A DNA stretch of 38,370 nucleotides from Porticoccaceae bacterium (lineage in GTDB: Bacteria; Pseudomonadota; Gammaproteobacteria; Pseudomonadales; Porticoccaceae): positions 1 through 38,370 of the forward strand of contig JALOAH010000044.1 of the NCBI GenBank assembly GCA_023228865.1. The letters run 5' to 3'. The translations under genes were made by a program, and so were the position numbers. Numbering within the stretch: the first letter of the stretch is position 1; each line of letters begins with the position of its first letter. Below, piece after piece: positions 16,076 through 37,319 of this stretch. Below the pieces are notes generated by a model, which did no database searches, was not told the DNA's origin, and saw only the letters and a program-made list of their open reading frames with translations.

Positions 16076-16984
16076 ATGAGCCAGCACAGAATTGTGGATT
16101 TCGTTCAAGCTCAGCGGGATAGGCTCTCGTACATCGACCTGCGCCTCCGGTTTATGGGGGACATTCGCCGTCATGATCTGGTAAATCGCTTCAGCATTCA
16201 GGTGGCCGCCGCCACCCGGGATCTTCGCCTCTACCAGGAGCTTGCCCCAGGCAACATTGATTACGACCGCAGCGCCAAATGTTACATCCCGACGGCGGCC
16301 TTTAAGCCCCTATTCGATATTCCAGTGGAACGGGTGCTGACCTGGCTGGCCGATGGCTTCGGAGACGGTGATCCCCATGAAAACGTTGAAGGGGTGCCTT
16401 GCGTTACTCCAGGCAGGCTTACCAAGCCAAATCTCAACATCCTCGCACTGATTACTCGTGCCATCCATCGGGGACAGGCTTTACAAATCGATTACCACTC
16501 CATCAGCAGCGGCAGATCGCGCCGGGAAATCGTCCCTTCGGCATTGATCGATACGGGTCTGCGCTGGCATGTGAGAGCCTTTGACCGCAAATCCGGTGAG
16601 TTCAGGGATTTCGTTATCACTCGAATCCAGAAACCCGTGCTACTGCCGGATTCCGCTATCCAAAACCAGGAGTATGCCGAACACGACATTCAGTGGACTC
16701 GGGTCGTCGAGTTGGAGTTGGTGCCGCACCCGGATCAACCTCGCCCCGATATCACCGAAATGGACTATGGCATGCGTGGCGGCGTGCTGCGGATGAAGCT
16801 GCGAGCGGCAACGGCTGGCTACATCCTGCGGAAGTGGAGTGTGGACTGCTCACCTGACCACAGCCTGCGCGGCCATGAGTACCGACTTTGGCTTAAGGAT
16901 CACCTGGCGCTGTACGGCGTCAAGAACGCGGTATTGGCGCCGGGATATACGGAACAGATGAGCGGGAGAAAGCACATTGGATAA
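16076..16984 (+). CDS. WYL-domain transcriptional regulator
   Basis: A 302-residue protein from the chosen ATG at 16076 (MSQHRIVDF). Residues about 10-80 form a winged-helix-like region (RLSYIDLRLRFMGDIRRHDL, then a recognition-type helix IQVAAATRDL). Residues about 140-205 form a WYL fold (LQIDYHSISSGR, LIDTGLRWHVRAFD, DFVITRI), with a C-terminal WCX-like extension. WYL proteins of this architecture (BrxR/CapW/PafB relatives) sense a ligand, often nucleic acid, and repress defence operons. The frame is open upstream to a TTG at 16019, but the ATG start fits the domain better. The stop overlaps the helicase start, so regulator and helicase are translationally linked. Role as master regulator of the array is inference from position. 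Confidence 0.85.
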   Translation: MSQHRIVDFVQAQRDRLSYIDLRLRFMGDIRRHDLVNRFSIQVAAATRDLRLYQELAPGNIDYDRSAKCYIPTAAFKPLFDIPVERVLTWLADGFGDGDPHENVEGVPCVTPGRLTKPNLNILALITRAIHRGQALQIDYHSISSGRSRREIVPSALIDTGLRWHVRAFDRKSGEFRDFVITRIQKPVLLPDSAIQNQEYAEHDIQWTRVVELELVPHPDQPRPDITEMDYGMRGGVLRMKLRAATAGYILRKWSVDCSPDHSLRGHEYRLWLKDHLALYGVKNAVLAPGYTEQMSGRKHIG

Positions 16985-19900
16985 CGTATTCGATTTTCGC
17001 AATCAGCTTGTTGATGAATACAGTGCTTTCTCGCGCAGCTTTACCCGCATTGCAGCCCTGGACATTCTCCGCGAGGTCGAGCGTCAATACGATGCCGGTC
17101 GCTACTGGCCAGAGCCTCTGATCCAGATCAACCCCAACTACCAGCGTAAAGGCACAGTGCAGCAGCTGGTGCAGCAGGGGCTGTTGCACAAGACTTGCGC
17201 GGATATTTTTCAAACCGGCAAAGCGGAGCATAATCCGCAAGATCTGCACCTTTACGCGCACCAGATGGAAGCGCTTGCCAAGGGCCAAGATGGCCAAAGC
17301 TATGTGGTCACAACAGGCACCGGCTCAGGAAAATCCCTGTCATTTTTTATCCCGGTGATTGACCGCATCCTCAAAGCCAAGGCAGCTGATGTCACGCCAC
17401 GCACCCGTGCCATTGTCATTTATCCGATGAACGCATTGGCAAACAGCCAGCTCGAAGAGCTGGACAAGTTTCTGCACGGCTATCCGGAAGGGCAAAAGCC
17501 TTTTACCGTAGCGCGCTATACCGGGCAGGAAGGCAACGCTGAGCGTGAAGCGATCGCCAGTAACCCGCCCGATATTTTGCTGACTAACTTCATGATGCTG
17601 GAGTTGATTCTAACCCGTTACGAGGAAACGGACAGGCGTGTGGTCGAACACTGTCATGGGCTTGAATTTCTGATCCTTGACGAATTGCACACCTATCGCG
17701 GTCGCCAGGGCGCGGACGTAGCCCTATTGGTGCGCCGTTTGCGAGAGCGCTTGCAGGCCGATCAACTGGTGTGCATAGGCACCTCGGCGACCATGTCCAG
17801 TGCCGGCACGCTGGCCGACCGCAACAAAACTGTCGCCGCGGTAGCCAGCAAATTATTCGGCACAGCTATTTCTGAGTACGATGTGATTGGTGAAACCTTG
17901 GAACGGGTCACCGACCCAAGCATGGATGTGGCAGCCATTCGAGGCAAATTGAAAGCCCTACTCAATCAGCAGCAGTTCAGCTGGCCGAATTTTTCTGCTT
18001 TCCAGCAAGACCCGCTTGCTATATGGGTGGAACTCAACCTTGGTATCGAGTTGTCCCAGCATGAAGCACCTCGCCGAGCAAAGCCCATCACACTAAAAGA
18101 AGCAAGCCAACGCCTGGCGGCAGATGCGGATTGCAGCGAGCAACTGGCACGAGAAGGCTTGCAGCGTTTTTTGGTGGCCGCCCACGACATCAAAACAGAG
18201 CAGGGGCGGCCGCCGTTCGCCTTCAAGCTGCACCAGTTCATCAGCGGCCCCGGCAAGGTTCATGCAACGTTGGAAGCGCCACAACAACGCCAGATAACGC
18301 TGGACGCGCAACGCTTTGCGCCGGGACGTCAGGCCGAATCGGTACTGCTCTATCCGGTGCATTTTTGTCGCGATTGTGGCCAGGAATACCATCCCGTCTG
18401 GCGTTCCGAGCAGGGCAGGGTGCAATACAGCCCCCGTGAAATTGATGACATCACGGCGGATGACAATGAGGATGTGCGCTTTGGTTTCTTGTGCCCCGCC
18501 AACCCGCAACAGGCCTATAAGGGGCAGCTTGAAGATCTGCCTGAAAGCTGGCTGGATCTCACCAGAGCAGAGCCCAAAATCAAAGGCACTTACAAAAAGT
18601 CTGTACCCCTGGGCACCCGAGTCGACCCGCAAGGACTGGAGGGCCGAGGTGAGCAGTTCTGGTATATCCCCGGCAAGTTTCGGTTCTGCCTGAATTGCGC
18701 CGTGCTGCACGAGGCTCACGGCAAGGATATGAATCGGCTGGCCAGTTTGTCCGGCGAGGGTCGTTCATCGGCTACGACCGTGCTCACGCTCAGTGCCTTG
18801 CGCCAGTTGTTTGCCCAACAGGAGCTACCTGCCGGGCTACCAGATCCGCGCAAGCTGCTTGGCTTTTCCGATAACCGTCAGGATGCCGCTCTGCAGGCAG
18901 GACATTTCAATGACTTTGTGTTTCTGCTCACTCTGCGTTCCGGGTTGATTGGTGCCCTGCAAAAAAATCAGGGACTGCTCACCGAGGAGCACCTAGCCGA
19001 TGCCGTATTCAAGGCGCTGGGTTTTGACGCCGTGGATGCAGCCACTCTGACCGAATACCTGCGAACACCAAAGCTCATGGGGCTGGCACGGCAGGAAGCC
19101 CAACGAACCCTGCGTTTTATCATTGGCTATCGCCTGTTGCGCGATCTCCGCCGCGGCTGGCGCTTCAATAACCCGAACCTGGATCAGCTCAATCTGCTGG
19201 CCATCCGTTACCGTGGGCTGGAGGAATTTTGCGCTGAGGAATCACTGTTTGAAAGCAGCGGTTCCGTATTGCGTAAACTAAACCCACATAACCGTGCCGC
19301 GCTATATCAAATCCTATTCGATGAAATGCGCCGGGGTCTATGCCTGGAAAGCCGCTATCTGGACGCGGTGGAGCAGGACAAGGCACGCACCAGTGCGTTC
19401 AGTTATCTGCACGAACGCTGGGCCTTTGCCGCTGATGAAAAGCTGGAAACGGCCCGCTATCTGATCCTCGAAAAACGCCCGGAATACAAGGGCAAGCCGC
19501 GCACGGATCTGCTCAGCGGAGGCCCACGCTCCCGCTTGCTCAAGCAGATCAAAATGGCCGAGGTATGGAAGCAAACCGCCTTTGCAGGGCAAACCCATGA
19601 GTGGAAGGAAGCCGAGTGGGCTGAATTGATTCAAGCCATGTTGCAAGCGGGATTGCACAACTATGTGCACAAACAAGCCATTGACGGAAAAATAGTGGGC
19701 TGGCGTCTGAATGCCGCAGCGCTGGAGTGGTGCTTGATCGGCAAGAATAGCGGCGAAAGCCGCATCAATGCCTTCTTCCGGCAACTCTATCTCAACGTGG
19801 CCGGGCTGCTGCAGCAGCCGGGCCACCCGCTGTTTGATTTTGAAGCGCAGGAACACACTGCCCAGGTTGAAGCGTCACGCAGACAACTGCTGGAGCAACG

Positions 19901-22271
19901 CTTTCGCTATACCGAGAAAGATCGTCAAGACTGGGCCGACAACCCTGCTCACGAGGCTCCGCTTGAGCGTCTGCCGGTGATGTTCTGTTCACCCACCATG
20001 GAGTTGGGTGTGGACATTTCCGCACTCAATACGGTATATCTGCGCAATGTACCGCCCACTCCGGCCAACTATGCCCAGCGCAGTGGTCGTGCCGGGCGTT
20101 CTGGTCAACAAGCCCTGGTCATCACCTACTGCGCAGCCCTCAGTCCCCACGACCAATGGTTTTTCCGTCATGCCAGCGATATGGTTCACGGCGTGGTCAA
20201 GCCCCCCACGCTGGATTTGGCCAATCGCGATCTGCTGGAAAGCCATTTGCGCGCAGTCTGGCTGGCCAGTGCCCGGGTTGGGCTGGATACCAGCATCGCA
20301 CCACTGCTGGAGCTGGAGGCGCCGGGCAAACCCGTCAAGGCCGAATTGCACCAGCAACTGGCAGACCCCGCCGTTCTCCACCGTGCGCGGCAAAGTGCCG
20401 CAGCTGTGGTTGCCCAATTGCAGGCCGATCTGCAAGGCAACAGCTGGTTCTCCGATGATTATGTCAACAAGGTGATCGACGAATCACCACAGGCATTTTC
20501 CGGAGCGCTTGAGCGCTGGCGCGTACTGTTTGATTCCACCCGCAAACAGATGGAGATGGCCGACCACATCGTTAAAAGCCATACGGCCTCCCATTCTGAA
20601 CGCAACAATGCCAGCCGTCGCTATGGTGATGCGGCACGGCAGTTCGCCGTGTTGTTAAAAACCGGCAATACCCAGGGTTCCGATTTCTACACCTACCGCT
20701 ATCTAGCCAGCCAGGGTTTCCTGCCTGGCTACAACTTCCCTCGCTTGCCATTGATGGCCTGGATTCCCGCACGGGGTGGCAACGGCACCAATGGTAAGGA
20801 TGACGAAGGCAGCATGGTCAGTCGACCGCGCTTTCTAGCCCTGTCGGAGTTCGGCCCGCGCAGCCTGATTTACCATCAGGGCCGCATGTACCGGGTTGTG
20901 CGTGCCAAGCTCAACGTTGGCTCCGCCGATCATGTCTCTGGCAGCAGCCAGCTCAGCACCATCGCCTCACGCATTTGCAGTCAGTGTGGCTATGGTCATC
21001 TGGGTGAACCGGGTGAGGGGGAGCCGTTGGTGGATCGCTGTGAAAACTGCGATGCACTGCTTACCGATCACGACTGGGTGCGCGAGCTTTACCGCATCGA
21101 AACCGTGGAGACAGTGCCCGTCGAGCGCATCTCCATCAACGACGAAGATCGCCAGCGGCAAGGGTTTGAACTGCAAACCACCTTCCGTTTTCTACCAGGG
21201 CCGGATGGACAGATACAAAAAAGCCAAGCGGAAGTATGCCAGGGCGAAGACGTCATCGCCGGACTGGTGTACACGCCTGCCGCCCGGTTGTGGCGTATCA
21301 ACCGGGGTTGGCGTCGCCGCAAGGACAAGAACCAGCTGGGCTTTTACATCAACCCCATCACCGGCACCTGGAGCAAAAAGGACGACCCCAATGCTGAAGA
21401 AGGCAGCGACGCTGTTGATGAACCTTTGCTTGACAAGGTGCCCAACCAGCGCATAGTGCCCTTTGTTGAAGATCACCGGAATTTGCTGATCCTCACTCCG
21501 GTGAAAACCTTGCCGCTTGAAACCATGGCTACCTTGCAGGCTGCCATCAAGCGCGGCATTGAAATGACCTTTCAGATCGAAGAATCGGAACTGGTGGCCG
21601 AACCCCTCCCCACCAGTGATGAGCGCAAGGCCGTGATGTTCTACGAATCTGCAGAAGGCGGAGCCGGTGTGCTTACCCGGTTAACCACCGAGCCTGATAG
21701 CCTGGCGCAGGTGGCCAGTGCCGCACTTGAGCTGATGCACTTCAGCAAGCCGACCGAGCCCTGGTCGATGGCGTCTCTGGACAGCCTTGAGCAAAAATAC
21801 CAAGGCCTATCCATCTGCGAGGCGGGCTGTTACCAGTGTCTGCTCTCCTACTTCAACCAACCTGACCACGACAACATCAATCGCCGCAATCAGGATGCGC
21901 TGAACCTGCTGGTGGCACTGGCCAATGCGCAGGTTTCCATGGCCAGGGTTCCAGACTCGGCGCACACAACAACACCAGCACCGGATTCTGGCAGCAGCCA
22001 GTTATCCGAGTGGCTCAAAGCACTGGATCAAGCCGGCCTGCAGCGCCCTGACGCGACCAATGTTCCCATCAATCAAGGGGCTGCCTCCGCCGCAGGGCAA
22101 TACAAGGCGGCCCGTGCGCTGGTGTTTTTGGAACCCATCACAGCCGAACTGCGCGATACGCTGACCGACAAGGGCTGGCAAGTGCTTGATTTTTCTGCTC
22201 AGGTACGTTGGCCGGAGCTGCTTGCTCGCTATTCCAACGTCTTCGCAGGTTCTGGGGGGAGCACGCTATGA
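16977..22271 (+). CDS. Giant DEAD/DEAH helicase with DUF1998-type C-terminus (DrmA-DrmB-like fusion)
   Basis: A 1764-residue superfamily 2 helicase. Walker A TGTGSGKS is at 113-120, the DEAH-type box DELH at 235-238, the GTSAT motif III at about 268 and motif VI QRSGRAGRSG at about 1034-1043. A long insertion between the two RecA domains holds two zinc-ribbon-like pairs (CRDC near 464, CLNC near 570). The C-terminal 450 residues contain CSQC...CENC (about 1332-1358), ESAEGGAG (about 1555) and CEAGCYQC (about 1614), the cysteine cluster of DUF1998 proteins. In DISARM, DrmA is the helicase and DrmB the DUF1998 protein; here both seem to be one chain. DruE of Druantia is an alternative relative. 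The start is TTG at 16977, with GGGAGAAAG before it, overlapping the WYL gene by 8 bases. Confidence 0.88.
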   Translation: MDNVFDFRNQLVDEYSAFSRSFTRIAALDILREVERQYDAGRYWPEPLIQINPNYQRKGTVQQLVQQGLLHKTCADIFQTGKAEHNPQDLHLYAHQMEALAKGQDGQSYVVTTGTGSGKSLSFFIPVIDRILKAKAADVTPRTRAIVIYPMNALANSQLEELDKFLHGYPEGQKPFTVARYTGQEGNAEREAIASNPPDILLTNFMMLELILTRYEETDRRVVEHCHGLEFLILDELHTYRGRQGADVALLVRRLRERLQADQLVCIGTSATMSSAGTLADRNKTVAAVASKLFGTAISEYDVIGETLERVTDPSMDVAAIRGKLKALLNQQQFSWPNFSAFQQDPLAIWVELNLGIELSQHEAPRRAKPITLKEASQRLAADADCSEQLAREGLQRFLVAAHDIKTEQGRPPFAFKLHQFISGPGKVHATLEAPQQRQITLDAQRFAPGRQAESVLLYPVHFCRDCGQEYHPVWRSEQGRVQYSPREIDDITADDNEDVRFGFLCPANPQQAYKGQLEDLPESWLDLTRAEPKIKGTYKKSVPLGTRVDPQGLEGRGEQFWYIPGKFRFCLNCAVLHEAHGKDMNRLASLSGEGRSSATTVLTLSALRQLFAQQELPAGLPDPRKLLGFSDNRQDAALQAGHFNDFVFLLTLRSGLIGALQKNQGLLTEEHLADAVFKALGFDAVDAATLTEYLRTPKLMGLARQEAQRTLRFIIGYRLLRDLRRGWRFNNPNLDQLNLLAIRYRGLEEFCAEESLFESSGSVLRKLNPHNRAALYQILFDEMRRGLCLESRYLDAVEQDKARTSAFSYLHERWAFAADEKLETARYLILEKRPEYKGKPRTDLLSGGPRSRLLKQIKMAEVWKQTAFAGQTHEWKEAEWAELIQAMLQAGLHNYVHKQAIDGKIVGWRLNAAALEWCLIGKNSGESRINAFFRQLYLNVAGLLQQPGHPLFDFEAQEHTAQVEASRRQLLEQRFRYTEKDRQDWADNPAHEAPLERLPVMFCSPTMELGVDISALNTVYLRNVPPTPANYAQRSGRAGRSGQQALVITYCAALSPHDQWFFRHASDMVHGVVKPPTLDLANRDLLESHLRAVWLASARVGLDTSIAPLLELEAPGKPVKAELHQQLADPAVLHRARQSAAAVVAQLQADLQGNSWFSDDYVNKVIDESPQAFSGALERWRVLFDSTRKQMEMADHIVKSHTASHSERNNASRRYGDAARQFAVLLKTGNTQGSDFYTYRYLASQGFLPGYNFPRLPLMAWIPARGGNGTNGKDDEGSMVSRPRFLALSEFGPRSLIYHQGRMYRVVRAKLNVGSADHVSGSSQLSTIASRICSQCGYGHLGEPGEGEPLVDRCENCDALLTDHDWVRELYRIETVETVPVERISINDEDRQRQGFELQTTFRFLPGPDGQIQKSQAEVCQGEDVIAGLVYTPAARLWRINRGWRRRKDKNQLGFYINPITGTWSKKDDPNAEEGSDAVDEPLLDKVPNQRIVPFVEDHRNLLILTPVKTLPLETMATLQAAIKRGIEMTFQIEESELVAEPLPTSDERKAVMFYESAEGGAGVLTRLTTEPDSLAQVASAALELMHFSKPTEPWSMASLDSLEQKYQGLSICEAGCYQCLLSYFNQPDHDNINRRNQDALNLLVALANAQVSMARVPDSAHTTTPAPDSGSSQLSEWLKALDQAGLQRPDATNVPINQGAASAAGQYKAARALVFLEPITAELRDTLTDKGWQVLDFSAQVRWPELLARYSNVFAGSGGSTL

Positions 22272-22315
22272 ATCCAGTATCCTTGGCTGGTGCAACCTCC
22301 CGGCTTGGCCTGTGC

Positions 22316-22344: not shown

Positions 22345-22349
22345 TCTAC

Positions 22350-22433: not shown

Positions 22434-23342
22434 ATGTCTAAGATCCCCTATACCAAACCGGCCCTTGGCCTGGAACAGCAGATCCTGCAGCTCCGTGCGC
22501 GTGGCATGGTGATTGCCGACGAGCCGCTGGCGAAACACTATCTTGGTTACATCAACTACTACCGCCTGGCGGCATATTGGCTGCCATTTGAGTCGGATCA
22601 TGGCAGTCACCAATTTCATCCCGGCACCACCTTTGAGCAGGTGCTGGATAGGTATGTGTTTGACCGTGAGTTGCGACTGCTGCTGATAGACGCAATCGAG
22701 CGTGTAGAGGTCGCGGTAAGAACGCAATATGCCTATCAGCTAGGCCATGCCCATGGTGCTCACCTATTGCTCAACGCCAATCTGTTTCAGCCAAACCGAG
22801 GCAGATGGAGTTATACCGCCAACCGCCAGCAACTGGAGCAGGATGTCGTCAACAGCAAAGAGCTCTTTATCCAGCACTTGTTGGACAAATACAAAGAACC
22901 CCTGCCACCTGTATGGGCAGCGGTCGAAATCATGACCCTGGGGCAGCTCTCCAAATGGTATGCAAACTTGAAGCTTCGTGCTGATCGCAATCGCGTTGCC
23001 CACCCCTTTGATATGGACGAAACAAACCTTGCTTCGTTTTTGCACCACCTGGCCGTTGTGCGCAATCTCTGTGCGCATCACAGCCGCGTGTGGAACCGGG
23101 AGCTGGCGTTCACCTTCAAATTGCCGAATCATCGGCCTGCCGCCGTACTGGGCAGCCTGAACCCCGCCAGCCCGAAAAAGCTCTACAACACCTTGGCGAT
23201 ATTGGGCTATCTGCTCGACAGGGTCAGCCCCGGGCACCACTGGAAGAGCCGCCTACAGCAATTGATACAGGCCCACCAGATTCCAGCAAACGAAATGGGC
23301 TTTCCCGCGCACTGGCTACAACAGCCCTTCTGGCAAATATAA
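22434..23342 (+). CDS. Abi_2 family (AbiD/AbiF-like) HEPN protein
   Basis: A 302-residue protein of the Abi_2 family, which includes the lactococcal abortive-infection proteins AbiD and AbiF. Typical segments are present: LEQQILQLRARGM, HYLGYINYYRLAAYWLPF, DRELRLLLIDAIERVEVAVRT, and VWAAVEIMTLGQLSKWY. The HEPN RNase motif R-x4-H is seen as RNLCAH at 210-215, so it may cleave RNA when triggered. The ATG at 22434 has GGAGGG four bases upstream. It lies 12 bases before the SNF2 gene. In the array it appears as an inserted cassette with its own promoter and RNA, suggesting an embedded abortive-infection module. Confidence 0.88.
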   Translation: MSKIPYTKPALGLEQQILQLRARGMVIADEPLAKHYLGYINYYRLAAYWLPFESDHGSHQFHPGTTFEQVLDRYVFDRELRLLLIDAIERVEVAVRTQYAYQLGHAHGAHLLLNANLFQPNRGRWSYTANRQQLEQDVVNSKELFIQHLLDKYKEPLPPVWAAVEIMTLGQLSKWYANLKLRADRNRVAHPFDMDETNLASFLHHLAVVRNLCAHHSRVWNRELAFTFKLPNHRPAAVLGSLNPASPKKLYNTLAILGYLLDRVSPGHHWKSRLQQLIQAHQIPANEMGFPAHWLQQPFWQI

Positions 23343-26141: not shown

Positions 26142-26150
26142 GGCGGCCCA

Positions 26151-29100: not shown

Positions 29101-30662
29101 ACTTTGCCCGCATCAACCCCAACACCCTGACCTGCCCGATCTTCCGCGCCCGCCGCGATGCGGAACTGACCCGGCAGATCTACCAGCGCGTCCCGGTACT
29201 GATCCGCGAGGCGCGCCCCGGCCAGCCGGAGCAGAATCCCTGGGGTATTTCGTTTATGGCCATGTTCCATATGTCCAACGACAGCCACCTGTTCCACGAC
29301 GCTGGCGGGCAGGGAATGCTGCCGCTCTACGAAGCCAAGATGATCCACCAGTTCGATCACCGTTGGGCCAGCTACGCGGCCAATGCCCGCGGCCAGGCGG
29401 GCAAGGGCGACGTGGCCAGTCGTGATGTGACCCTGGTGGAAAAAGCCGACCCGGACTTTGCCGCCACGCCACGCTATTGGGTGAGGGCACAGGAAGTGCG
29501 CCAGCGGCTGGCGGACAAGGGCTGGCAGCGGCAGTGGTTGTTGGGGTGGCGGGATATTACCAACGCCACCAACGAGCGCACGGTGATTGTGAGTGTGGTG
29601 CCTGTGAGTGGGGTGGGGAACCAGATGCCGCTGATGTTTCCTTCCGGGCAAGACGATCTGCGCATATATGCGGCCTTGGTGGCGAACCTCTCGTCCCTGA
29701 CGCTCGATTTTTTTGCCCGGCATAAAGTCGGTGGCACGCATCTGAATTATTTCATTTTCAAGCAGATAGCTGTGCTACCCCCGGATTGCTACACCAACTC
29801 CGACCTCGCCTTTATCGTACCCCGCGTTCTGGAACTCACTTACACCGCCTGGGATATGCAACCCTGGGCGCAGGATTTGGGCTATGACGGCGAACCTTTC
29901 CCCTTCGACCCAGACCGCCGCCCCATGCTGCGCGCCGAACTCGACGCCTGGTACGCCCGTGCCTACGGACTGAACCGCGACCAGCTCCGCTACATCCTCG
30001 ATCCCGCCGATATCGAAGGCCCAGACTACCCCTCGGAAACTTTCCGCGTATTGCAGAAGAACGAGTTGAAAGAGTTCGGTGAATACCGCACCCGGCGGCT
30101 GGTGCTGGAAGCGTGGGATAAATTGGAAGCGGGAGAGCTGGATTCCGTTCAAGAGCTTTATCGCGTAGCGGCTCATCAGCAGTACGCGCCATCGCCCAAT
30201 AAACAGGAAATCGCGCGTCGATCAACGGCCTATGCGCAGTATTTTCCAGACACCGTACCCTGCTGCGAGTCTGAGGATTGGTTGGCGGGTCTTGTCTGTG
30301 ATTTGGTGATTCAAGGTGGCCCCATATCCGAGCAGGATTTACGCATGGTATTGCTGACTCAAGTTGACGCAAGCGAGCACAGTGAAGCATTGTCACAGTG
30401 GTGCTCACAAGAGAGACTGGAACGTTTACCGGCGGTTATGAGATGGCTAGAAAGCTTGTTCGAGGTGCCGCTGGGGCAGTCGTTGGAAATAACAAGGACT
30501 GAAAACTTAAGCAATGTCATCGGTGATGCCCGTACCCGTGAGGTAGCCGAGCTGTTGCTTAACACATACAAAAATCAACAGCGGCTACTCGATTCACTTA
30601 AAACCAGTGAAAGAGCAGACGGCGACATGGCCCCCTCTACAGAAGTCCATAAACAGGCATAA
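26151..30662 (+). CDS. Large adenine-specific DNA methyltransferase, DrmMI-like (Eco57I type)
   Basis: A 1503-residue N6-adenine methylase. SAM motif I is DPACGSGHF (from D512), the motif IV box is NPPW (780-783), and a GVDRNPMALELCR motif II region lies between them. The first 450 residues are an N-terminal helical region, and the part after 900 is a target-recognition-like domain (IVPTGIATDDSTK, FENREAIFPGVH). Length and order match class 1 DISARM methylases and the PglX/BREX relatives; BREX is excluded because PglZ, BrxC and BrxL-type genes are absent. It probably protects host DNA. No nuclease domain is visible in the chain. The end overlaps the upstream-extended frame of the next gene, but not its preferred ATG. 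Confidence 0.9.
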   Translation: MKKIHKAHVALNLPSLRLEGALFLPDQLEKAALGQAARQQEADYHTPKGLKLKDDYSRAFQIASAQWQHFARLFERTDLDPQQATTTFVQELLRDAFAYHRIQPVAGLTLGERHYPISLLAGQLPIVVAPHHLGLDTPDERFSITGSGSRKKTAFQLAQELINASDEHLWAMVTNGKQLRLLRDAATLTRPSFLEIDLQDLLSGQRFAEFAMAWRLLHASRAGQPGEAPTACIWEAWREAGKEEGTRVRDGLRQGVTQALLTLGSGFLRHPGNDALRRDLQEGHLSKEDYFEQLLRLIYRLIFLFTVEERGLLHTADDSKTAQQARRAYAEGYAMARLRDRALKRRARNRFDDLWQAARIVFNALSDGEPRLALPALGGLFARSQCPALDAASLSNADWLLAIQHLRWDNASGSLAPVDYRNMGPEELGSVYESLLELVPEVELPARQFGFAGLTSDGSTQGNARKTSGSYYTPDSLVQELIQSALEPVIEQRLADNPANPTEALLNIKVIDPACGSGHFLLAAARRLAERLAALRRSEGAVKPQDYRHALREVISHCIFGVDRNPMALELCRTALWLEGFEEGRPLSFLDHHLQCGDALLGLTDLKALEKGIAPAAFKPLSGDDKVTCKKLAQLNSAALKDLERKRVANAFGQLGEIDAAAGLSELQALEALPEDTPQDIAKRAATYQAFQQQAASSRLAHAADLLLGAYVLPKTDITAAHIPTSQTLYLELFSDQHNAQHQQQLQAARSACREARVFHWPLAFPQVFAEGGFDCVLGNPPWERIKLQEEEFFATRSTLVAAAKNKAERSQRIDWLAQGQLARHIYPDQEHSELGSVAEQRLYQEFLGARRTAEAASAFAHVNGSEGGRYPLTGVGDVNTYALFAETISQITRPAGRAGFIVPTGIATDDSTKAYFGAIATSGRLASLYDFENREAIFPGVHRSYKFCLLTLGQSAEAEFAFFLTQTAQLQDARRRFTLGADDFARINPNTLTCPIFRARRDAELTRQIYQRVPVLIREARPGQPEQNPWGISFMAMFHMSNDSHLFHDAGGQGMLPLYEAKMIHQFDHRWASYAANARGQAGKGDVASRDVTLVEKADPDFAATPRYWVRAQEVRQRLADKGWQRQWLLGWRDITNATNERTVIVSVVPVSGVGNQMPLMFPSGQDDLRIYAALVANLSSLTLDFFARHKVGGTHLNYFIFKQIAVLPPDCYTNSDLAFIVPRVLELTYTAWDMQPWAQDLGYDGEPFPFDPDRRPMLRAELDAWYARAYGLNRDQLRYILDPADIEGPDYPSETFRVLQKNELKEFGEYRTRRLVLEAWDKLEAGELDSVQELYRVAAHQQYAPSPNKQEIARRSTAYAQYFPDTVPCCESEDWLAGLVCDLVIQGGPISEQDLRMVLLTQVDASEHSEALSQWCSQERLERLPAVMRWLESLFEVPLGQSLEITRTENLSNVIGDARTREVAELLLNTYKNQQRLLDSLKTSERADGDMAPSTEVHKQA

Positions 30663-30666
30663 GGTA

Positions 30667-32604
30667 ATGGACGCTACGATTGGAGAAGCTCAGAGAACCA
30701 GTCGTACCCAACCAAGGGTGTGGGTAGAAACGTTATGGCTGCTCGAATCTTTGGAGTCGGAAACCCCGCTGCGGGAAGTTTCCCTGCGGCTCGGTTTGAA
30801 CCTGGTACTGTCAGAACCCATAGAGGGTAGCCTGGGCCACGGTGTAGGAAAGACGGCCTTTTGCCAGTTACTGCGTTTCGTGCTAGAAGACCCCCAATGG
30901 GCCGCTGGCACTCCCTTGCGTGATGAGCTGTGCAACGCTATGCCGAGTGGTGCGGTTGCCGCACGTGTATATATTGAGGGCGAAGCTTGGACGGTTTTGA
31001 AGCCCTGGCAGCACCAGAAACGCTATCGTGCCGCCAGAGGTGCAAGGTGGCAGCAACTCGCTAGAAATGAAGTGGCTAGTGAGCACGAGGCCTATGTACA
31101 GGCGCTCGATGAAAAACTGGTCAAGATTCTGCCGGTTCAAAATCTACCTGGCTCAAACCAACCTATCCAATGGCAGCATCTTCTTGCTTGGTGCTCCCGC
31201 GATCAGGGCAGTCGCTATCAGAGTTATTACCACTGGCGCCTCGAAGGTGCCGGCTTCACCTTGCCTGCGCAGTCACCCGCATTGGTAGTCAAGATAGTCC
31301 TTGGTCTGCTCAAGGATGCTTCTCTCCATAACGACCTGAAAAGTAAAGAATCTAATCTCAGCCAGTTGCGTTCAAACATAGCTAATCTGGAGCGCCGCCC
31401 GGCGGACTTGCTTGCTTATGTAAAGCACCAGCTGGCAACTGCTTTGGGCGCTGATGAATCCTCGCCTTTTCGCGCGGCCTCCTTGTTTGATGAATCCTCA
31501 TTGCATGGCTTGGCTAAGCAGCAGGTTGCCAAATGTACCGAAGAGCTCCAACAACTTCGGGAGCAGCGCAATAACCGTGAGCAGGAAAGGCTGGCTGTGC
31601 TTGACCAATGCGCACCCTTGCGAACTCAACTAAAGGCAGTGGCAAACCGGATTGCGCAATTGCGAGCGGCTATCAGTGGTAATCGTGCGGAAGTCGAGCG
31701 CCTTAAGAAAGAACCGGAAGCCCTGCAGGAAAAGTTGACCCTATTCTGCGAGCCAGGTAATCGGCTGCTGCGTGATTGCGATTATGTTCAAGAGCGGATT
31801 GATGTCGTACAACTCAGCTCTATTCGCGATGCCAGGGAACGTCAGAAAAAAAATGGGGATTACCAATTGGAACTGACTCAACAGGCAAAGTTTCTGAAGG
31901 AGCTGGAGCAGAAGCTGTCGCCTTTCGATGCGAGAATCGCTAACCTCACAAATTTACTGGGCGACTTCAGCAGCCTAGAAATAGATGTACATAACAGAAA
32001 GAAGCGATTGGAAATGGGTATTGCTGAGCACGAGCACTATGAAAAAATCATTGCCAACCCGTCGGAATGGCAGGAATTGGCCAGACTGAAACACCAGGAG
32101 ACAACGTTGGACAGTGAGATAGGCCAGATCAAACTGGCAATTCATGACCAGCAGGCGTTGTATGCCGATCGCAAGCGAACCTTGAGAAATGCGGCAGATT
32201 CAATTGCTAAGAGTATCCCCGGGTTTACCTGGGGAAATTTTGATTGTGACAAGACACCTCCTTTTCACATGGGGCCAATGCATTCGACCACCTATGGCGT
32301 ACTGGAGACGCTCGCCGGTGACTTGGTTTGCCTGCTGGATAGTGGACATCCTGAAAGCCTTCATCCCGGATTTTTGTTGCACGATTCACCAAGAGAAGCG
32401 GAGATGAGTGAGTCTCTTTTCTGGGCGCTTTTACAGGTGGCAAAGAACAATCATTCCACTTCCAGTCAATATATTGTCACTACTTCCACGGAAGCCTCGT
32501 CAGATTTTGAAGAGTTTGTAAGAGTGCGACTTCATAGCCGGGAGGAAGATGGCTTCTTGCTTAAGAAACGAATCGGCATGGATTTCCGGCCGCTGAATCT
32601 ATAA
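30667..32604 (+). CDS. SMC/Rad50-like coiled-coil ATPase
   Basis: A 645-residue P-loop ATPase from the chosen ATG (MDATIGEAQ) with AAGG immediately upstream. A GTG at 30607 would overlap the methylase by 56 bases. The Walker A motif GHGVGKTA is near residues 57-64. A long helical region (about 250-520) reads as coiled coil with heptads such as KCTEELQQLREQRNNREQE and RLKKEPEALQEKLTL. A C-terminal Walker-B-like segment FLLHDSPREAE is typical of DUF2326/Rad50-like ATPases. No zinc hook CxxC was found. The partner is likely the DUF3696 ATPase that follows. I do not recognise it as a named defence protein. Confidence 0.75.
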   Translation: MDATIGEAQRTSRTQPRVWVETLWLLESLESETPLREVSLRLGLNLVLSEPIEGSLGHGVGKTAFCQLLRFVLEDPQWAAGTPLRDELCNAMPSGAVAARVYIEGEAWTVLKPWQHQKRYRAARGARWQQLARNEVASEHEAYVQALDEKLVKILPVQNLPGSNQPIQWQHLLAWCSRDQGSRYQSYYHWRLEGAGFTLPAQSPALVVKIVLGLLKDASLHNDLKSKESNLSQLRSNIANLERRPADLLAYVKHQLATALGADESSPFRAASLFDESSLHGLAKQQVAKCTEELQQLREQRNNREQERLAVLDQCAPLRTQLKAVANRIAQLRAAISGNRAEVERLKKEPEALQEKLTLFCEPGNRLLRDCDYVQERIDVVQLSSIRDARERQKKNGDYQLELTQQAKFLKELEQKLSPFDARIANLTNLLGDFSSLEIDVHNRKKRLEMGIAEHEHYEKIIANPSEWQELARLKHQETTLDSEIGQIKLAIHDQQALYADRKRTLRNAADSIAKSIPGFTWGNFDCDKTPPFHMGPMHSTTYGVLETLAGDLVCLLDSGHPESLHPGFLLHDSPREAEMSESLFWALLQVAKNNHSTSSQYIVTTSTEASSDFEEFVRVRLHSREEDGFLLKKRIGMDFRPLNL

Positions 32605-32642
32605 ACCTATGACCAGCTCAATGATGCCAACAGGAAACCATC

Positions 32643-34034
32643 ATGCTAACTGAACTCAGAATTCAGAACTTCAAGGCCTGGAATGATACGGGAATAATTC
32701 GTCTGGCGCCGTTGACAGTCATTTTCGGTGCCAACAGTGCCGGGAAGAGCAGCCTGGGGCATTTGCTGCTGGCCTTGAAACAAACTGTCCTTTCTGTTGA
32801 TCGTAAGCGCCCCTTGCATCTGGGTGATGAAAACGCGCTGATCGATCTCGGCACCTTTGCCGAGTGTATTCACAACCACGACCTCACTCAGCCTTTGCGT
32901 TTTGCGCTGGGTTGGCAGTTGCCAGAAAAGCTCGAAGTCCGTGATCCCCTCACACGGGCAAAGTTTCAGGGCGACCACTTGCATCTGACAGTCAGCCTGC
33001 TGGCCGACAAGCGAGAGCAGCCTCGTGTCCAGCAGATGAGCTATCAGTTAGCGAGTGGTGATCAGCTGCAGCTGGAAGTGAGCTACGCCAACGATACACT
33101 TGCAAAGCCCGAAATCACTTCAAGCCAGCTGAAATTGGTGCGCAGCACCGGCCGGGTCTGGCCACTGGATGAACCAGACAAGTTCTACCGTATTTCCGAC
33201 CAGAGTCGCGCCCGCTTTCAGAACGCCGAGTTTTTATCGGATTTCGCGCTGGCAACCGAGGGTGCGCTGGGCAGAGTCTGTTACCTTGGCCCCCTGCGAG
33301 ACCACCCCAAACGCATCTATTCGTGGTCTGGCGAAACGCCGGATAGCGTTGGTCAAAGGGGCGAGTTCACTATTCCGGCGATTCTCGCCGCGAGCGCTGA
33401 GCAGCGTATGCTCAGTCGTGGTTACAAGAAAAAGCAGTACCCCTTTGATGCGTTTGTTGCGCAGTGGTTAAAGGACTTGGGCGTGATCGACAGCTTCACC
33501 GTCAAGCCGGTGGCCAAAGGGCGCAAGGAGTATGAGGTGCTGCTGAAAACTCATGGCACCAGCAGCGAAGTGAAGATTACAGATGTGGGTTTTGGCGTGT
33601 CTCAGGTGTTGCCAGCCCTGACGCAGGCCTTTTATTGCCTGCCACATTCGACTGTATGGATGGAGCAACCGGAAATCCATCTGCACCCTCAGGTGCAGGC
33701 TGAACTGGCCGATGTGTTTATTGCGGCCACCCAGGCGCGTGAAAACGGCAGGGAGCGACATGTGCAGTTGATTGTGGAAAGCCACTCCGAGCATTTTCTC
33801 AACCGTATTCAGCGCCGCGTGGCGGAGGGCAGCTTAAAAGCAGAGGACGTAGCTGTGTATTTCTGTCGTCGGGGTGGTGCCGCCACCGAACTGGAACCGC
33901 TGCGCCTGAACAAGTTCGGCGAAGTTGAAAATTGGCCCATTAACTTCTTTGGCGATGAGATGGCTGATATATCGGCCAGAACGCTGGCCGCCATGCAGCG
34001 CAAAAAAGAGCAGCGCAAGGAATCTGGAGAATGA
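32643..34034 (+). CDS. DUF3696-type AAA/ABC ATPase
   Basis: A 463-residue ABC-class ATPase. The N-terminus MLTELRIQNFKAW leads to Walker A GANSAGKSS (29-37), the signature-like DVGFGVSQVLP, Walker B WMEQPEIHLHP (about 338-348), the IVESHSEHF histidine switch and the C-terminal FGDEMADI that defines DUF3696. Relatives sit with nucleases in many defence clusters and use ATP to gate a partner. Here the partner is probably the PIN-like protein, whose start overlaps this stop (ATGA at 34031-34034). The gene starts 38 bases after the coiled-coil ATPase. Confidence 0.85.
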   Translation: MLTELRIQNFKAWNDTGIIRLAPLTVIFGANSAGKSSLGHLLLALKQTVLSVDRKRPLHLGDENALIDLGTFAECIHNHDLTQPLRFALGWQLPEKLEVRDPLTRAKFQGDHLHLTVSLLADKREQPRVQQMSYQLASGDQLQLEVSYANDTLAKPEITSSQLKLVRSTGRVWPLDEPDKFYRISDQSRARFQNAEFLSDFALATEGALGRVCYLGPLRDHPKRIYSWSGETPDSVGQRGEFTIPAILAASAEQRMLSRGYKKKQYPFDAFVAQWLKDLGVIDSFTVKPVAKGRKEYEVLLKTHGTSSEVKITDVGFGVSQVLPALTQAFYCLPHSTVWMEQPEIHLHPQVQAELADVFIAATQARENGRERHVQLIVESHSEHFLNRIQRRVAEGSLKAEDVAVYFCRRGGAATELEPLRLNKFGEVENWPINFFGDEMADISARTLAAMQRKKEQRKESGE

Positions 34035-34567
34035 TGCGCGCGGTAATTGATACCAATATATTGCTGATCGCCAACGGACAGCATGGTGATGTATCGCCTG
34101 AGTGCGTTACGGAATGCGTCAACCTTTTGCAGGCGATGCAAGCGAATGGTACTGTGGTGATTGATGATGGTTACCGCATTCTTGGGGAATATCAGCACAA
34201 GACTCGATTGAATCCCCCCAAGGGAGTAGGCGATGTGTTCCTCAAGTGGCTGCTGCGTAATGCCGGCAACCCGGTACATTGCGCACAAGTGGCCATAACC
34301 GAGAGTGCAGTCGATGAATTCGCCGAGTTTCCCGTCCCGACTCTGCAGCCAATGTTCGATGCGCCAGATCGCAAGTTTGCCGCCGTTGCCAATGCGCATC
34401 CTGATAAGCCGCCGGTATGGCAGGGCGCGGATTGTAAATGGCTTGATTGGTGGCCGCATTTGCAAATGGCGGGTATTGGTGTGGAGTTCGTTTGCCCGAA
34501 TGATGCCTGTCGCTTTTACGCCAACAAGTTTCCTGACAGACCGGTTCCGACGTTGCCTCTGGGATAA
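34031..34567 (+). CDS. PIN-like nuclease
   Basis: A 178-residue protein with the PIN fold pattern: V-I-D7-T-N at the start, E53 in GEYQHK, D113 in DRKFAAVA, and D134 in ADCKWLDW. These four acidic residues are the usual metal site for single-strand RNA cleavage. It is longer than toxin PIN proteins (about 130-140) and has no antitoxin gene next to it. Instead it is translationally coupled to the DUF3696 ATPase, which may restrain or activate it. Predicted cytoplasmic; target RNA unknown. Confidence 0.75.
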   Translation: MMRAVIDTNILLIANGQHGDVSPECVTECVNLLQAMQANGTVVIDDGYRILGEYQHKTRLNPPKGVGDVFLKWLLRNAGNPVHCAQVAITESAVDEFAEFPVPTLQPMFDAPDRKFAAVANAHPDKPPVWQGADCKWLDWWPHLQMAGIGVEFVCPNDACRFYANKFPDRPVPTLPLG

Positions 34568-34570
34568 TCC

Positions 34571-35254
34571 ATGACCGACTTCTGCCGCTTCCCCCACACC
34601 CCACATATCGCCTGGCTCGGCGAGGGTATGCCGCGCGATGACAAGGTGCTGGCGCCCCATGAAGTCGAGGCCTTGCTGTCGGGGCCGGTGCGCGTGGAAG
34701 AAAAGCTCGACGGCGCCAATCTGGGTATATCGCTTGGCCCCGACGGCGCCCTGCGTGCCCAGAATCGCGGCCAGTATCTGACCGAGCCGTTTACCGGCCA
34801 GTTTTCGCGACTCGGCTCATGGTTGGCCCAACACCAATGGGCCTTAACCGAAAAGCTGACTGGCGACCTGATTTTGTTTGGCGAGTGGTGCGCTGCCAAA
34901 CATTCGCTGGATTATGAAAACCTGCCGGACTGGTTTGTACTGTTCGATGTGTATGACCGTAAGGCACAGCGCTTCTGGAGCAGTGCCCGACGCAATGCAC
35001 TGGCGGCAGCCCTCGGACTGTCGGTGGTGTCCTCCATCTATGAGGGTGGCGCCAGCCTGTCAGACCTGAAAAAAATCCTCACCACCAGCACCAGCCGCTA
35101 CCGGAATGGGCCACCGGAGGGCCTGGTGATCCGCCAGGAATCCGCCGACTGGTGCGAAGCACGCGCCAAGCTGGTACGCGCCGAATTCACCCAAACCATC
35201 AGCGAGCACTGGCGTAGCAGGGCCATTCAGTGGAATCGAGTTAAGAGCACCTAA
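34571..35254 (+). CDS. RNA ligase family protein
   Basis: A 227-residue nucleotidyltransferase with the motif I lysine K45 in EEKLDGAN, motif III-like LFDVYD, motif IV PEGLVIR (about 182-188) and motif V AKLVRAEF (about 198-205). These are the RNA_ligase (PF09414-type) signatures; DNA ligases have extra C-terminal domains that are missing here. It would join RNA ends through a ligase-AMP intermediate. It starts 3 bases after the PIN-like stop, so nuclease and ligase are co-expressed. RNA repair of self transcripts or tRNA is a reasonable role but is inference. The active lysine and other motifs appear complete. Confidence 0.85.
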   Translation: MTDFCRFPHTPHIAWLGEGMPRDDKVLAPHEVEALLSGPVRVEEKLDGANLGISLGPDGALRAQNRGQYLTEPFTGQFSRLGSWLAQHQWALTEKLTGDLILFGEWCAAKHSLDYENLPDWFVLFDVYDRKAQRFWSSARRNALAAALGLSVVSSIYEGGASLSDLKKILTTSTSRYRNGPPEGLVIRQESADWCEARAKLVRAEFTQTISEHWRSRAIQWNRVKST

Positions 35255-35269
35255 TTTAAGGAAGGCCGT

Positions 35270-36502
35270 ATGCCCTTGTTTATGACATTGACCCATGAGC
35301 GACTATGCCAGTACATCGAAGCTGCCAAGCATCATGTCATTCTTGCCGCACCCGGTATTCCGGTAGAAGTAGCAACGGCTTTGCTGGATGCGCAGAAGCG
35401 GCTTGGTTCCGGCAAGGTAGTGGTGGTGTTGGACGTATCGGCGCGGGTTTCACGGCTTGGCTATGGGGATTATCGAGCCGTTGAAATGCTTGCTGAGGGC
35501 GGCATCAGTGTCCGCCAACATTCAGGCTTGCGTATCGGCGCGCTGATTTGCGACGAGAGTGGCTGGAGTTTTACCTCATCGCCCCGGCTTGTGGAGGTTG
35601 ATCCGACAACGGACAGTGAGGCGTTCAACGCTATTGCGCTCACGGCAGCACAAGTGATGGTGTTGCGTGCCGAACTTCCGCCGGTAAGTGGCAGCATGGA
35701 TTCGCAGTCGGCTCTTGAGTATCCCGTTGTTGGCAGTGAACCCCTTGCCGAACCTACACTTGGCGCAGTCAAGCGAGCGCTGGATATAGCGCCGCCGCAG
35801 CAATTTGATCTGGCTCGTCAAACACAAGTGTACGCAGCCCTCATTCAGTTTGTTGAGCTCACTTTCGAGGGCTTCAATATCCAGAGTCGCCGCATCCAGC
35901 TGCCTAAAACCCTACCGCTGATTTTCAGCCAAGATAAGGCATTGAAGGACAGGGTCAGCGCATCACTGAAGGTGCTGGACAAGATCGAAAAGCCCGCCGC
36001 GCTGCGGGAGCTCACCGAGCGGCTCGACGAACTGAGGGCGGCGTATCTTGTACCGGTGGGCCAGGCTGGCCGAGTCATGCTGAAATCAAAGCGGTCACAA
36101 TTCGAGGGTGAGCTCAACGGGCTGGAAAAACGTCTGGATAATCTCAAAGAGGATTTGAAGAAGGATTTGCAGGGCGCGCTCGACAAAGTCGTTGATGCAA
36201 TCGTTCCGGATCTGGTTCGTGCGGTGATGGCAGATCCGCCGCCGCGTTTTCGTGGGCTCTTCCCAGCCACGCAAGCGTCTGCGGAAGTTTATGTTCGTGA
36301 AGAACTCGGCAAGTCGTTCCCTAAGGCGGAAGAGCTGGTGTCAGGGATGAAGATTCATAAATTTTATAAAGACGTCACCTACGAAACACTAAAGAACAAG
36401 GAGTTTAGTGAGCGCGTGATGCGAGAAATTCCTCAATCGGTGCTGGATGGCGCCTTGCTCCAGGAAGATTTGGCCGCCAAAGCGGGGAGGGCTACATCGT
36501 GA
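35270..36502 (+). CDS. PLD-like protein with degenerate HKD motif (DrmC-like)
   Basis: A 410-residue protein whose first 110 residues look like a phospholipase D-type domain: HVILAAPGI, KVVVVLDVS, VEMLAEGGISVRQ, then L-R-I-G-A-L-I-C-D-E-S, and the strand FTSSPRL. The aligned HxKxxxxD box reads R88-x-G90-x4-D95, so the histidine and lysine are lost. The remaining 300 residues contain coiled coil (EGELNGLEKRLDNLKEDLKKDLQ) and helical segments. In DISARM, DrmC is a PLD-family protein; here the fold seems present but probably without catalysis, perhaps as a DNA-binding or structural partner. The ATG at 35270 follows AAGGAAGG. Confidence 0.7.
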   Translation: MPLFMTLTHERLCQYIEAAKHHVILAAPGIPVEVATALLDAQKRLGSGKVVVVLDVSARVSRLGYGDYRAVEMLAEGGISVRQHSGLRIGALICDESGWSFTSSPRLVEVDPTTDSEAFNAIALTAAQVMVLRAELPPVSGSMDSQSALEYPVVGSEPLAEPTLGAVKRALDIAPPQQFDLARQTQVYAALIQFVELTFEGFNIQSRRIQLPKTLPLIFSQDKALKDRVSASLKVLDKIEKPAALRELTERLDELRAAYLVPVGQAGRVMLKSKRSQFEGELNGLEKRLDNLKEDLKKDLQGALDKVVDAIVPDLVRAVMADPPPRFRGLFPATQASAEVYVREELGKSFPKAEELVSGMKIHKFYKDVTYETLKNKEFSERVMREIPQSVLDGALLQEDLAAKAGRATS

Positions 36503-36533
36503 GTCTGGCCATGATAATCGGAGCCGGTTGCAC

Positions 36534-37319
36534 ATGAACCCCCTGCAACGCGCCCTGCTAGAAAAGGCCGGCAATGATCACGGCTTCGAATATGTGCTGC
36601 CCGCCCCGGACGACAGGGTAAATCTCGCCTCGGCCCGTCATCGCGCGCAGGTGTGCATCAGCGTCAGTGAGGGATGCTATTCGCTTGCGTTTACTTCGCC
36701 TGCACCCGGTCTGCTGAATGCCGAGCTGGCGCGTAGCCTGCCTACCTTGCAGCGCAGCGGCGATGGTTTCATCGCGCCCGATCAGCCTGCGCTGGCCCAA
36801 CTGCTGCGCCGTGCCGCTGAGCTGGCCCATGCACTGCCCAATCAGGCGGTACATGACTTTGAGGCCAGTTTGACGCAGGAGCTGGAGCAGTTGCCCGACG
36901 CACTCAAGAACACCGAAGTCGAGCGTCTGGTGCGCCAGCGTATAGGTCAGCAGGCCTTCCGCAATGCCATGCTCGATTACTGGGGCAGTGCCTGCGCGGT
37001 TACCGGCATCGCCCTGCCCGAGGTGCTACGCGCCAGCCACGCGAAACCCTGGGCGGAGTGTGACAGTGATGCCGAGCGCCTGGATGTGTTCAACGGCTTT
37101 TTGCTGATTGCCAACCTGGATGCCCTGTTTGATCGTTTTCTGATCACCTTCAATCATCAGGGAAAATTGGTGACCGCCCCAAGCCTAGGATCGTCCGATC
37201 TGGCAGCCCTTGGCCTTCAGGCCCCGCAGCACCTGCGCTGGCTTGCGGCGGAACACCTGCCTTACCTGAAATACCACCAGCAACAGTTTCACAAACTCTG
37301 GCGATGTGGGCTTAGCTGA
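36534..37319 (+). CDS. HNH endonuclease
   Basis: A 261-residue protein from the ATG at 36534 (MNPLQRALL); the open frame begins at 36447, but that overlaps the PLD-like gene. An N-terminal domain of about 120 residues has unknown function. The C-terminal HNH_2-type domain reads YWGSACAVTG, H169 in ASHAKPW, N187 in NGFLLIANLDALFDR, with aspartates 196 and 200. Proteins of this form are common restriction nucleases next to methylases. It is the only clearly intact DNA nuclease of the array and may be its effector. It is 31 bases after the PLD-like gene and is the last gene of the run. Confidence 0.85.
   Translation: MNPLQRALLEKAGNDHGFEYVLPAPDDRVNLASARHRAQVCISVSEGCYSLAFTSPAPGLLNAELARSLPTLQRSGDGFIAPDQPALAQLLRRAAELAHALPNQAVHDFEASLTQELEQLPDALKNTEVERLVRQRIGQQAFRNAMLDYWGSACAVTGIALPEVLRASHAKPWAECDSDAERLDVFNGFLLIANLDALFDRFLITFNHQGKLVTAPSLGSSDLAALGLQAPQHLRWLAAEHLPYLKYHQQQFHKLWRCGLS

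Follow-up and report, generated by a model that had tools for sequence, protein, structure and literature searches.

Gene organization of the locus

We analysed contig JALOAH010000044.1 of a Porticoccaceae bacterium over its full 38,370 nucleotides (hereafter the window), which holds one co-directional run of eleven open genes separated by short gaps (16019–37319, + strand). The run itself was already laid out correctly in a preliminary description made from the sequence alone. Judged by gene content, gene order and comparison with related loci, it is an ARMADA Type I-like operon belonging to a clade with an exchanged nuclease and nested cassettes, and it is neither an eleven-gene system nor DISARM.

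The run starts with a WYL-domain regulator (16019–16984, +; Pfam WYL, 45 bits), followed by a YprA/DruE-like helicase of 1764 residues (16977–22271, +), the first of the core genes. The C-terminus of this helicase (approximately residues 1632–1764; 21870–22268, +) is a degenerate Vsr-type nuclease domain in which the motif DF...DG[PT]xH is absent. Next comes an AbiD/Abi_2 gene (22434–23342, +; Pfam Abi_2, 190 bits; PADLOC AbiD, 246 bits), apparently an inserted cassette, and then two further core genes, namely an SNF2 helicase of the BrxHII/DrmD/DpdE-like type (23355–26141, +; PADLOC DpdE, 712 bits; DrmD, 290 bits) and a PglX/DrmMI-like adenine methylase (26151–30662, +; PADLOC DrmMI, 236 bits). 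The genes beyond the methylase are an SMC/DUF2326-like ATPase with the motif GHGVGKT and a conserved LLHDSPREA (30667–32604, +), a DUF3696 ATPase with Walker motifs (32643–34034, +; PADLOC HEC-03B, 426 bits), a predicted PIN-fold ribonuclease (34031–34567, +; PADLOC HEC-03A, 84 bits), an ATP-dependent RNA ligase (34571–35254, +; Pfam RNA_ligase, 119 bits), an accessory PLD-fold-like protein recognized by Foldseek (35270–36502, +), and an HNH endonuclease (36534–37319, +; Pfam HNH_2, 46 bits), the proposed replacement DNA cutter and a core gene of the clade. Eight of the eleven proteins were named by Pfam, and catalytic motifs were intact in both helicases, the methylase, both ATPases, and the ligase. 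GC content falls from 0.62–0.65 over 26001–30000 to 0.50–0.53 over 30001–33000, near the methylase/SMC junction, which fits an inserted cassette.

Core genes and related loci

ARMADA Type I is described as YprA followed by a BrxHII-like helicase and a PglX-like methylase (Bell et al. 2025 preprint, PMC12458937). The order YprA–(AbiD)–SNF2–methylase of the window matches this gene content and order, with AbiD intervening, and the lead towards ARMADA given in the preliminary description was therefore correct. The YprA protein contains GTGSGK, DELH, QRSGRAGR, and five CxxC pairs, and is 72% identical to a protein of an Acidithiobacillus caldus plasmid; the SNF2 helicase contains GIGKT and DEAH, and the methylase DPACGSG and NPPW. 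The assignment to ARMADA rests on gene content and order, and we use the label "ARMADA Type I-like" because the window YprA, without the DF...DG[PT]xH motif, departs from the predicted-active Vsr domain described as typical of Type I, a system that takes its name from the YprA clade and two shared genes. ARMADA Type II has as its fourth gene a GajB-like UvrD helicase with a RelE domain; in Pfam searches none of the eleven proteins matched UvrD or RelE.

The preliminary description had also read the run as a relative of DISARM class 1 in which the helicase and DUF1998 proteins were fused and the PLD nuclease had decayed. PADLOC alone names the core genes DruE, DpdE, and DrmMI. Its DrmD and DrmMI scores bear out a relationship to DISARM, but the helicase matches DruE (298 bits) far better than DrmA (53 bits), and the separate DrmA and DrmB (DUF1998) proteins of class 1 were not found. 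The helicase and DUF1998 parts do lie in one protein, as described; an undivided protein is, however, the typical state of YprA, DISARM being the exception (PMC12458937), and the supposed fusion is not supported. Likewise, the PLD-like protein does lack the HKD motif, but its reading as a decayed DrmC is not supported: it matches no PADLOC model at 0.001, and a distant relative lies in a BREX operon. Druantia III was rejected as well, since a DruE-like protein is present but no DruH occurs among the PADLOC matches listed, which for four proteins are the best 25 families only.

Searches with YprA in three overlapping genome sets gave matches in 9 of 369, 14 of 398, and 17 of 399 genomes. Plasmid loci were chosen by hand and not at random, 12 of the 66 records with a YprA match being fetched and added to earlier ones. 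We examined 50 loci (L numbers; genomes bear G numbers) and scored 42. Five of the eight unscored loci are cut by a contig end (L058, L060, L071, L074, and L079), and in three further sequence follows in which neither SNF2 nor methylase was matched (L062, L063, and L121). L009 and L131 are both from Acinetobacter soli, and L131 alone was counted. The core gene order was found in 42 of the 45 loci having enough sequence.

Co-divergence of core and accessory genes

Co-divergence was measured by Mantel tests of pairwise uncorrected protein distances against YprA distances. The SNF2 helicase (r = 0.97, n = 43; 0 of 1999 permutations as high), the methylase (r = 0.885, n = 21; 0 of 1999), and the HNH protein (r = 0.92, n = 21; 0 of 9999) diverge in step with YprA, and these four genes thus form the working set of the clade. 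Correlations were r = 0.31 for the SMC-like ATPase (n = 13; 41 of 1999 permutations), and, in small samples, r = −0.07 for the DUF3696 ATPase (n = 6; 1256 of 1999), r = −0.10 for the PIN protein (n = 6; 1074 of 1999), and r = 0.88 for the ligase (n = 5; 21 of 1999). By this measure, the SMC-like ATPase, the DUF3696 ATPase, and the PIN protein look exchangeable, with the reservation that the ATPase, PIN, and ligase correlations are based on five or six loci. L076 and L077 provide an example of exchange: their YprA proteins are near-identical (branch lengths 0.02 and 0.03), and the SMC-like ATPase of L076 is nearest that of L064, and that of L077 nearest that of L061. The earlier claim that six further genes are built into the system consequently stands for HNH only; the SMC-like gene and the ATPase–PIN pair do not follow the core, and AbiD lies between YprA and SNF2 in no other scored locus. 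Measured co-divergence can thus sort the genes of a machine from its passengers in a large defence operon.

A mobile ATPase–PIN–RNA ligase unit

The adjacent, overlapping ATPase and PIN genes correspond to the two genes of HEC-03, one of the Hma embedded candidates (HEC; PMC10855318). The PIN protein has a predicted PIN/VapC fold; VapC chains appeared in a second look (VIA), and a Foldseek search of the PIN model against the PDB gave nothing at 0.001. The third protein exceeds the cut-off of 27 bits for ATP-dependent RNA ligases (Pfam PF09414) by a wide margin and contains KLDG, ILFGEW, EGLVI, and KLVR (motifs KxDG, III, IV, and V), which are largely kept in six aligned relatives. Its nearest solved relative is PAB1020 (27 bits). 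It matches no PADLOC model, and phage records yielded five distant ligase matches only, at <30% identity.

In 399 genomes of one order, 19 ligase matches fell in 18 genomes. We tallied the 11 genomes with E below 1e-70 and left aside six genomes with E of 1e-36 to 1e-29 (two inspected), one genome with a partial match only, and a partial second match in G832. The ligase accompanies a complete ARMADA core in three of the 11 (G956, G003, and G831) and ARMADA fragments in one (G836); in another (G930), on a 3.3-kb contig, the sequence after the ligase encodes the N-terminal portion of an ARMADA-type HNH protein. In one genome (G1059) the unit separates hsdS from hsdR in a Type I restriction–modification operon, four genomes have the ligase without a matched ARMADA gene and with no adjoining restriction–modification gene seen (G934, G801, G842, and G1026), and in one the locus is cut by a contig end (G832). 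Nitrosospira, four plasmids (including two near-identical copies from Aeromonas), and the window itself bring the total to 17 places, in 16 of which the ATPase–PIN pair lies directly upstream of the ligase, the exception being a cut-off contig.

The full triple was found in five ARMADA loci. On an Azotobacter plasmid (L006), an N-terminal fragment of the helicase, with 158 aligned residues, precedes the complete triple, and the A. caldus plasmid retains a ligase-like remnant between methylase and HNH. A tree of 16 ligases required at least five changes between ARMADA-linked contexts (fragments included) and others, many forks being weakly supported. The ATPase/PIN pair comprises two subfamilies, the PIN proteins being 25–27% identical to that of the window in L001 and L003 and 57–69% identical in four others; the ligase, by contrast, is 59–67% identical in five aligned relatives, and that of L117 is more distant. 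On these data, the ATPase, PIN protein, and RNA ligase constitute a mobile three-gene unit, PADLOC HEC-03 plus an RNA ligase, which appears to be new. Among open-licence papers, only rumen-microbiome and osteoarthritis work turned up for HEC-03, none joined DUF3696 with an RNA ligase, and no such cassette was seen in the titles and abstract beginnings of the matches listed for RNA ligases with PIN proteins or antiphage activity.

A different arrangement occurs in L057, an ARMADA-like locus with an intact Vsr motif, where an AAA ATPase of another kind, a small PIN-like protein, and a DUF4325 protein follow the methylase (8313–11308). The small protein begins like a PIN domain by eye and had no Pfam hit; the cassette is perhaps a parallel embedding.

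We tentatively propose that the triple acts as a reversible RNA-restriction cassette, nested in operons for DNA restriction much as prrC is, and here in an ARMADA lineage that passed from Vsr to HNH; infection would trigger cutting of host RNA and the cassette's own ligase would reseal it, and the cell would stall for a time and recover, not die. Our confidence in this proposal stays below an even chance. The DUF3696 ATPase would sense infection, or the disabling of the host operon, and free the PIN nuclease, which would cleave an essential RNA, with tRNA as the likeliest target. The breaks would be rejoined by the unit's own RNA ligase, giving low idle toxicity or cell recovery. The three genes do travel together, within varied host operons or within none; the trigger, the target, and the resealing are inferred. 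PIN enzymes leave 5′-phosphate and 3′-OH ends. Joining such ends takes an ATP-dependent ligase but neither a kinase nor a phosphatase, and neither of the latter two is encoded among the three genes of the triple (the wider genomes were not searched). The same ends are left by two-metal nucleases such as AriB (PMC12409363). VapC PIN toxins are metal-dependent RNases whose targets are tRNA anticodon loops or the 23S sarcin–ricin loop (PMC13273310).

Several points weigh against this proposal. The end chemistry of the PIN protein in the triple is assumed by analogy with PIN enzymology at large, and the ATPase of L113 is split into two open reading frames. Moreover, the ATPase–PIN pair of A. soli is followed directly by HNH without a ligase, in a locus where the helicase and methylase are in pieces, which indicates that the ligase is not strictly needed.

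The triple might instead be chiefly an addiction module, in which the ATPase–PIN pair is the toxin and the ligase the antidote that mends its cuts, stabilizing the defence island without any response to phage. Its completeness beside ARMADA fragments (L116 and the Azotobacter plasmid L006) and on a conjugative plasmid would agree with this, as would the sharing of one ligase family by two ATPase/PIN subfamilies. Recurrence in restriction–modification-type operons and the HEC-03 entry in PADLOC point rather to defence, and A. soli retains the supposed toxin without its antidote; we regard an addiction module as fairly unlikely. Equally doubtful is a ligase that joins ends other than PIN cuts, either repairing host RNA that a phage or another defence enzyme has cut, or joining RNA to block its function. 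No sequence feature ties the ligase to one substrate, and in two inspected loci of the weaker group of six genomes (L118 and L119) no ATPase–PIN match accompanies it, but in the close family the ligase almost always directly follows ATPase–PIN, as counted above.

If the reversible cassette is real, it would be a defence unit equipped to mend the damage it causes; in the classical example, PrrC, it is the phage that brings the repair enzymes. It raises the question of whether RNA-cutting defence can be reversible and not suicidal.

Loss of the Vsr motif and its proposed replacement by HNH

The C-terminal Vsr domains of ARMADA I and II are predicted to be active, and those of the Druantia I and II YprA proteins inactive (PMC12458937, section 8). 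In the main text of that preprint, HNH is mentioned once, in the title of a reference. The window YprA and its relatives no longer show the DF...DG[PT]xH motif, while the position and flanking pattern are kept as in intact loci. The domain is degenerate in 24 of 47 YprA rows, and on a quick tree built without the Vsr columns these rows form one clade (support 100), corresponding to one change of state. An HNH gene lies downstream of the methylase in 21 of the 23 scorable degenerate-Vsr loci (at most 5.8 kb away, with cassettes between), compared with 2 of the 19 intact ones (Fisher p = 1.2e-7, a value that ignores kinship).

The association extends beyond the scored loci. In the 399 genomes, 34 had any HNH match at 1e-15, and 14 of these aligned from the N-terminal part (G836 as a fragment); 12 of the 14 also have YprA, and the other two (G832 and G836) carry the ligase. 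All eight plasmid records with HNH coverage of at least 80% also have YprA. The sister lineage of the degenerate clade (L082, L083, and L084) retains the intact motif, and an HNH match occurs in each of its three genomes, on the contig of the locus in two of them and on a different contig in G1010. A lineage holding both nucleases is as expected if HNH arrived first and Vsr decayed later.

We read the loss of the Vsr motif and the near-fixation of HNH as one nuclease replacement. This motif loss in an ARMADA clade containing the window, paired with a downstream HNH, appears to be new; it would amount to an apparent effector swap, with both nucleases still present in a surviving lineage. At the DNA level, the methylase would mark self DNA, and the SNF2 and YprA helicases would find and unwind phage DNA that is unmarked or replicating. 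With the Vsr domain at the end of YprA presumably dead, an HNH protein recruited to the complex would cut in its place. Motif loss, near-fixation, and parallel divergence were observed in the sequences; recruitment and cutting by HNH are inferred.

The evidence on the other side is as follows. The Vsr motif was lost in a single event, and the two HNH counts are therefore not independent changes. The degenerate loci L078 and L124 have no neighbouring HNH: the contig of L078 stops soon after an open reading frame that looks DUF262-like by eye, and its genome (G003) has an HNH of the family near the start of another contig; in L124 an IS21 element abuts the methylase, and no HNH match is listed on that plasmid. 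Conversely, intact loci L083 and L082 have HNH at 2.9 and 7.7 kb, and an HNH match occurs in three of the five intact-Vsr genomes of the searched order (G952, G906, and G1010, as opposed to G1057 and G931), so that the presence of HNH does not imply a dead Vsr. Three intact loci without HNH have short stretches after the methylase (L120, 2.0 kb; L065, 2.6 kb; L084, 2.7 kb), most of which is occupied by the SMC gene in L065 and L084; an HNH could be overlooked there, and the intact count without these loci is 2 of 16. Finally, GmrSD proteins follow the core in intact loci L061 and L083, and "no HNH" therefore means no member of this HNH family.

HNH could instead be an unrelated passenger, and the degenerate Vsr a mere sign that this YprA can do without a nuclease. 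The predicted inactive Vsr domains of Druantia I and II YprA (PMC12458937) would be a precedent, and the HNH genes near two intact loci and the matches in intact-Vsr genomes would follow naturally. A passenger, however, would be expected to exchange as the SMC-like gene does, and HNH is instead retained in nearly all degenerate loci and tracks YprA closely through a clade whose YprA proteins diverge to roughly 40% identity. We judge this explanation rather improbable, and somewhat more so than either alternative considered for the triple.

Overall model

Taken together, we favour a model in which the run is a DNA-defence operon of the ARMADA Type I-like kind, from a sub-lineage whose DNA cutter was replaced, and carries in addition a separate RNA-level module; we give this model about an even chance. 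The SMC-like ATPase, AbiD, and the PLD-like protein would be optional additions. ARMADA is reported to provide direct, non-abortive defence, all four genes of the Type II system being needed (PMC12458937). That all eleven genes form one integrated, extended ARMADA system, as the preliminary description held, is very unlikely: the single run with its short gaps, the constant place of the triple in five ARMADA loci, after methylase/SMC and before PLD/HNH, and the correlation of the ligase with YprA in those loci would suit it, but no other scored locus combines the SMC gene with the triple or places AbiD between YprA and SNF2, the SMC, ATPase, and PIN distances depart from those of YprA unlike the core, and the triple also occurs beside ARMADA fragments and, without adjoining ARMADA or restriction–modification genes, on plasmids from Aeromonas and Tistrella as well as in four genomes.

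Other accessory and flanking genes

With tblastn, 5 of 32 genome loci, each comprising YprA and short flanks, gave a relative of the WYL regulator, and a WYL gene is annotated upstream in Croceicoccus. L081 has a 29% identical AbiD relative after its HNH. In Paraburkholderia and Mesorhizobium, operons of the ARMADA I-like kind have the SMC-like ATPase as their fourth gene. Even with E relaxed to 10, Pfam gave nothing useful for the PIN, PLD-like, and SMC-like proteins beyond PIN_3 in the Nitrosospira PIN protein (0.18) and DUF2326 in the SMC-like ATPase (0.0025). Sequence searches of the PDB with PLD-like and SMC-like alignments found nothing useful.

The PLD-like protein has no HxKxxxxD motif. 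A model of modest confidence (pLDDT 70.7) matched TrmBL2, SauUSI, PLD, Zucchini, and NucT in Foldseek at E = 6e-5 to 5e-3. The protein is present in three of the five ARMADA loci with the full triple, and a scan of genome contigs found four loci. On an Acinetobacter towneri plasmid (L010, 15989–17245), a distant relative (30% identity) is flanked by pglX and pglZ in a BREX operon, and the family may be common to PglX-type systems.

Related loci showed further insertions. An ARMADA-like operon on an A. caldus plasmid (L005) has a Phd/VapC toxin–antitoxin pair between SNF2 and methylase (15186–15820), another insertion point, and in two ARMADA I-like loci an annotated ATP-binding domain protein (L127, 4647–7349) or a UvrD-family gene (L067, 6108–8789) comes after the methylase or SMC gene.

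Upstream of the run, the window carries a Type I restriction–modification operon (4546–11526) encoding HsdM, HsdS, a PADLOC PDC-S23 protein, and HsdR; the PDC-S23 gene occupies, between hsdS and hsdR, the slot that holds the ATPase–PIN–ligase unit in L112. A Mutator-type transposase on the minus strand (12004–13215) lies between this operon and a phage-type integrase split over two overlapping frames, with its N-terminal and catalytic parts apart (13552–14963), likely the broken integrase of the island. Right after the HNH gene, a Fic-domain protein with a DeoR-type helix–turn–helix is encoded on the minus strand (37522–38223).

Comparison with known systems

The window shares with ARMADA Type I the succession of YprA, a BrxHII-like SNF2 helicase, and a PglX-like methylase, as well as an undivided, Druantia-like YprA. 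It differs in the lost YprA nuclease motif, in the added HNH gene that is almost fixed in the clade, and in the AbiD, SMC-like, and ATPase–PIN–ligase cassettes. The ATP-binding genes of L127 and L067 recall the GajB-like fourth gene of ARMADA Type II. DrmD-like and DrmMI-like genes and a YprA-family helicase are held in common with DISARM class 1, from which the window departs by its undivided helicase, nearer DruE, and by the missing DrmC match.

Like PARIS, the triple pairs an AAA_15-type ATPase with a nuclease. PARIS consists of the AriA ATPase and the AriB Toprim nuclease, which cuts tRNA and leaves a 3′-OH (PMC12409363). Membership in PARIS was rejected, as the partner in the triple has a predicted PIN/VapC fold and not a Toprim domain; AriA models, moreover, score at most 79 bits, and the triple has its own ligase. 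HEC-03, a two-gene candidate in PADLOC-DB, has the same adjacent HEC-03B and HEC-03A genes, to which the family of the window adds the RNA ligase as third gene in 16 of the 17 places where the ligase was found.

An RNA-cutting factor within a DNA restriction operon is what the triple has in common with PrrC of EcoprrI, and one triple relative lies between hsdS and hsdR, the position of prrC as well. This anticodon nuclease gene is embedded in a Type I restriction–modification operon, and PrrC is countered by the repair kinase and ligase of phage T4 (PMC3874165). In the triple, by contrast, the ATPase and the PIN nuclease are separate proteins, and the ligase is encoded together with the nuclease, not supplied by phage T4. 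For the DNA level, the reported functional coupling of ZorE and DruE (PMC13192584) offers a parallel for an HNH protein that would work in trans with a YprA-family helicase.

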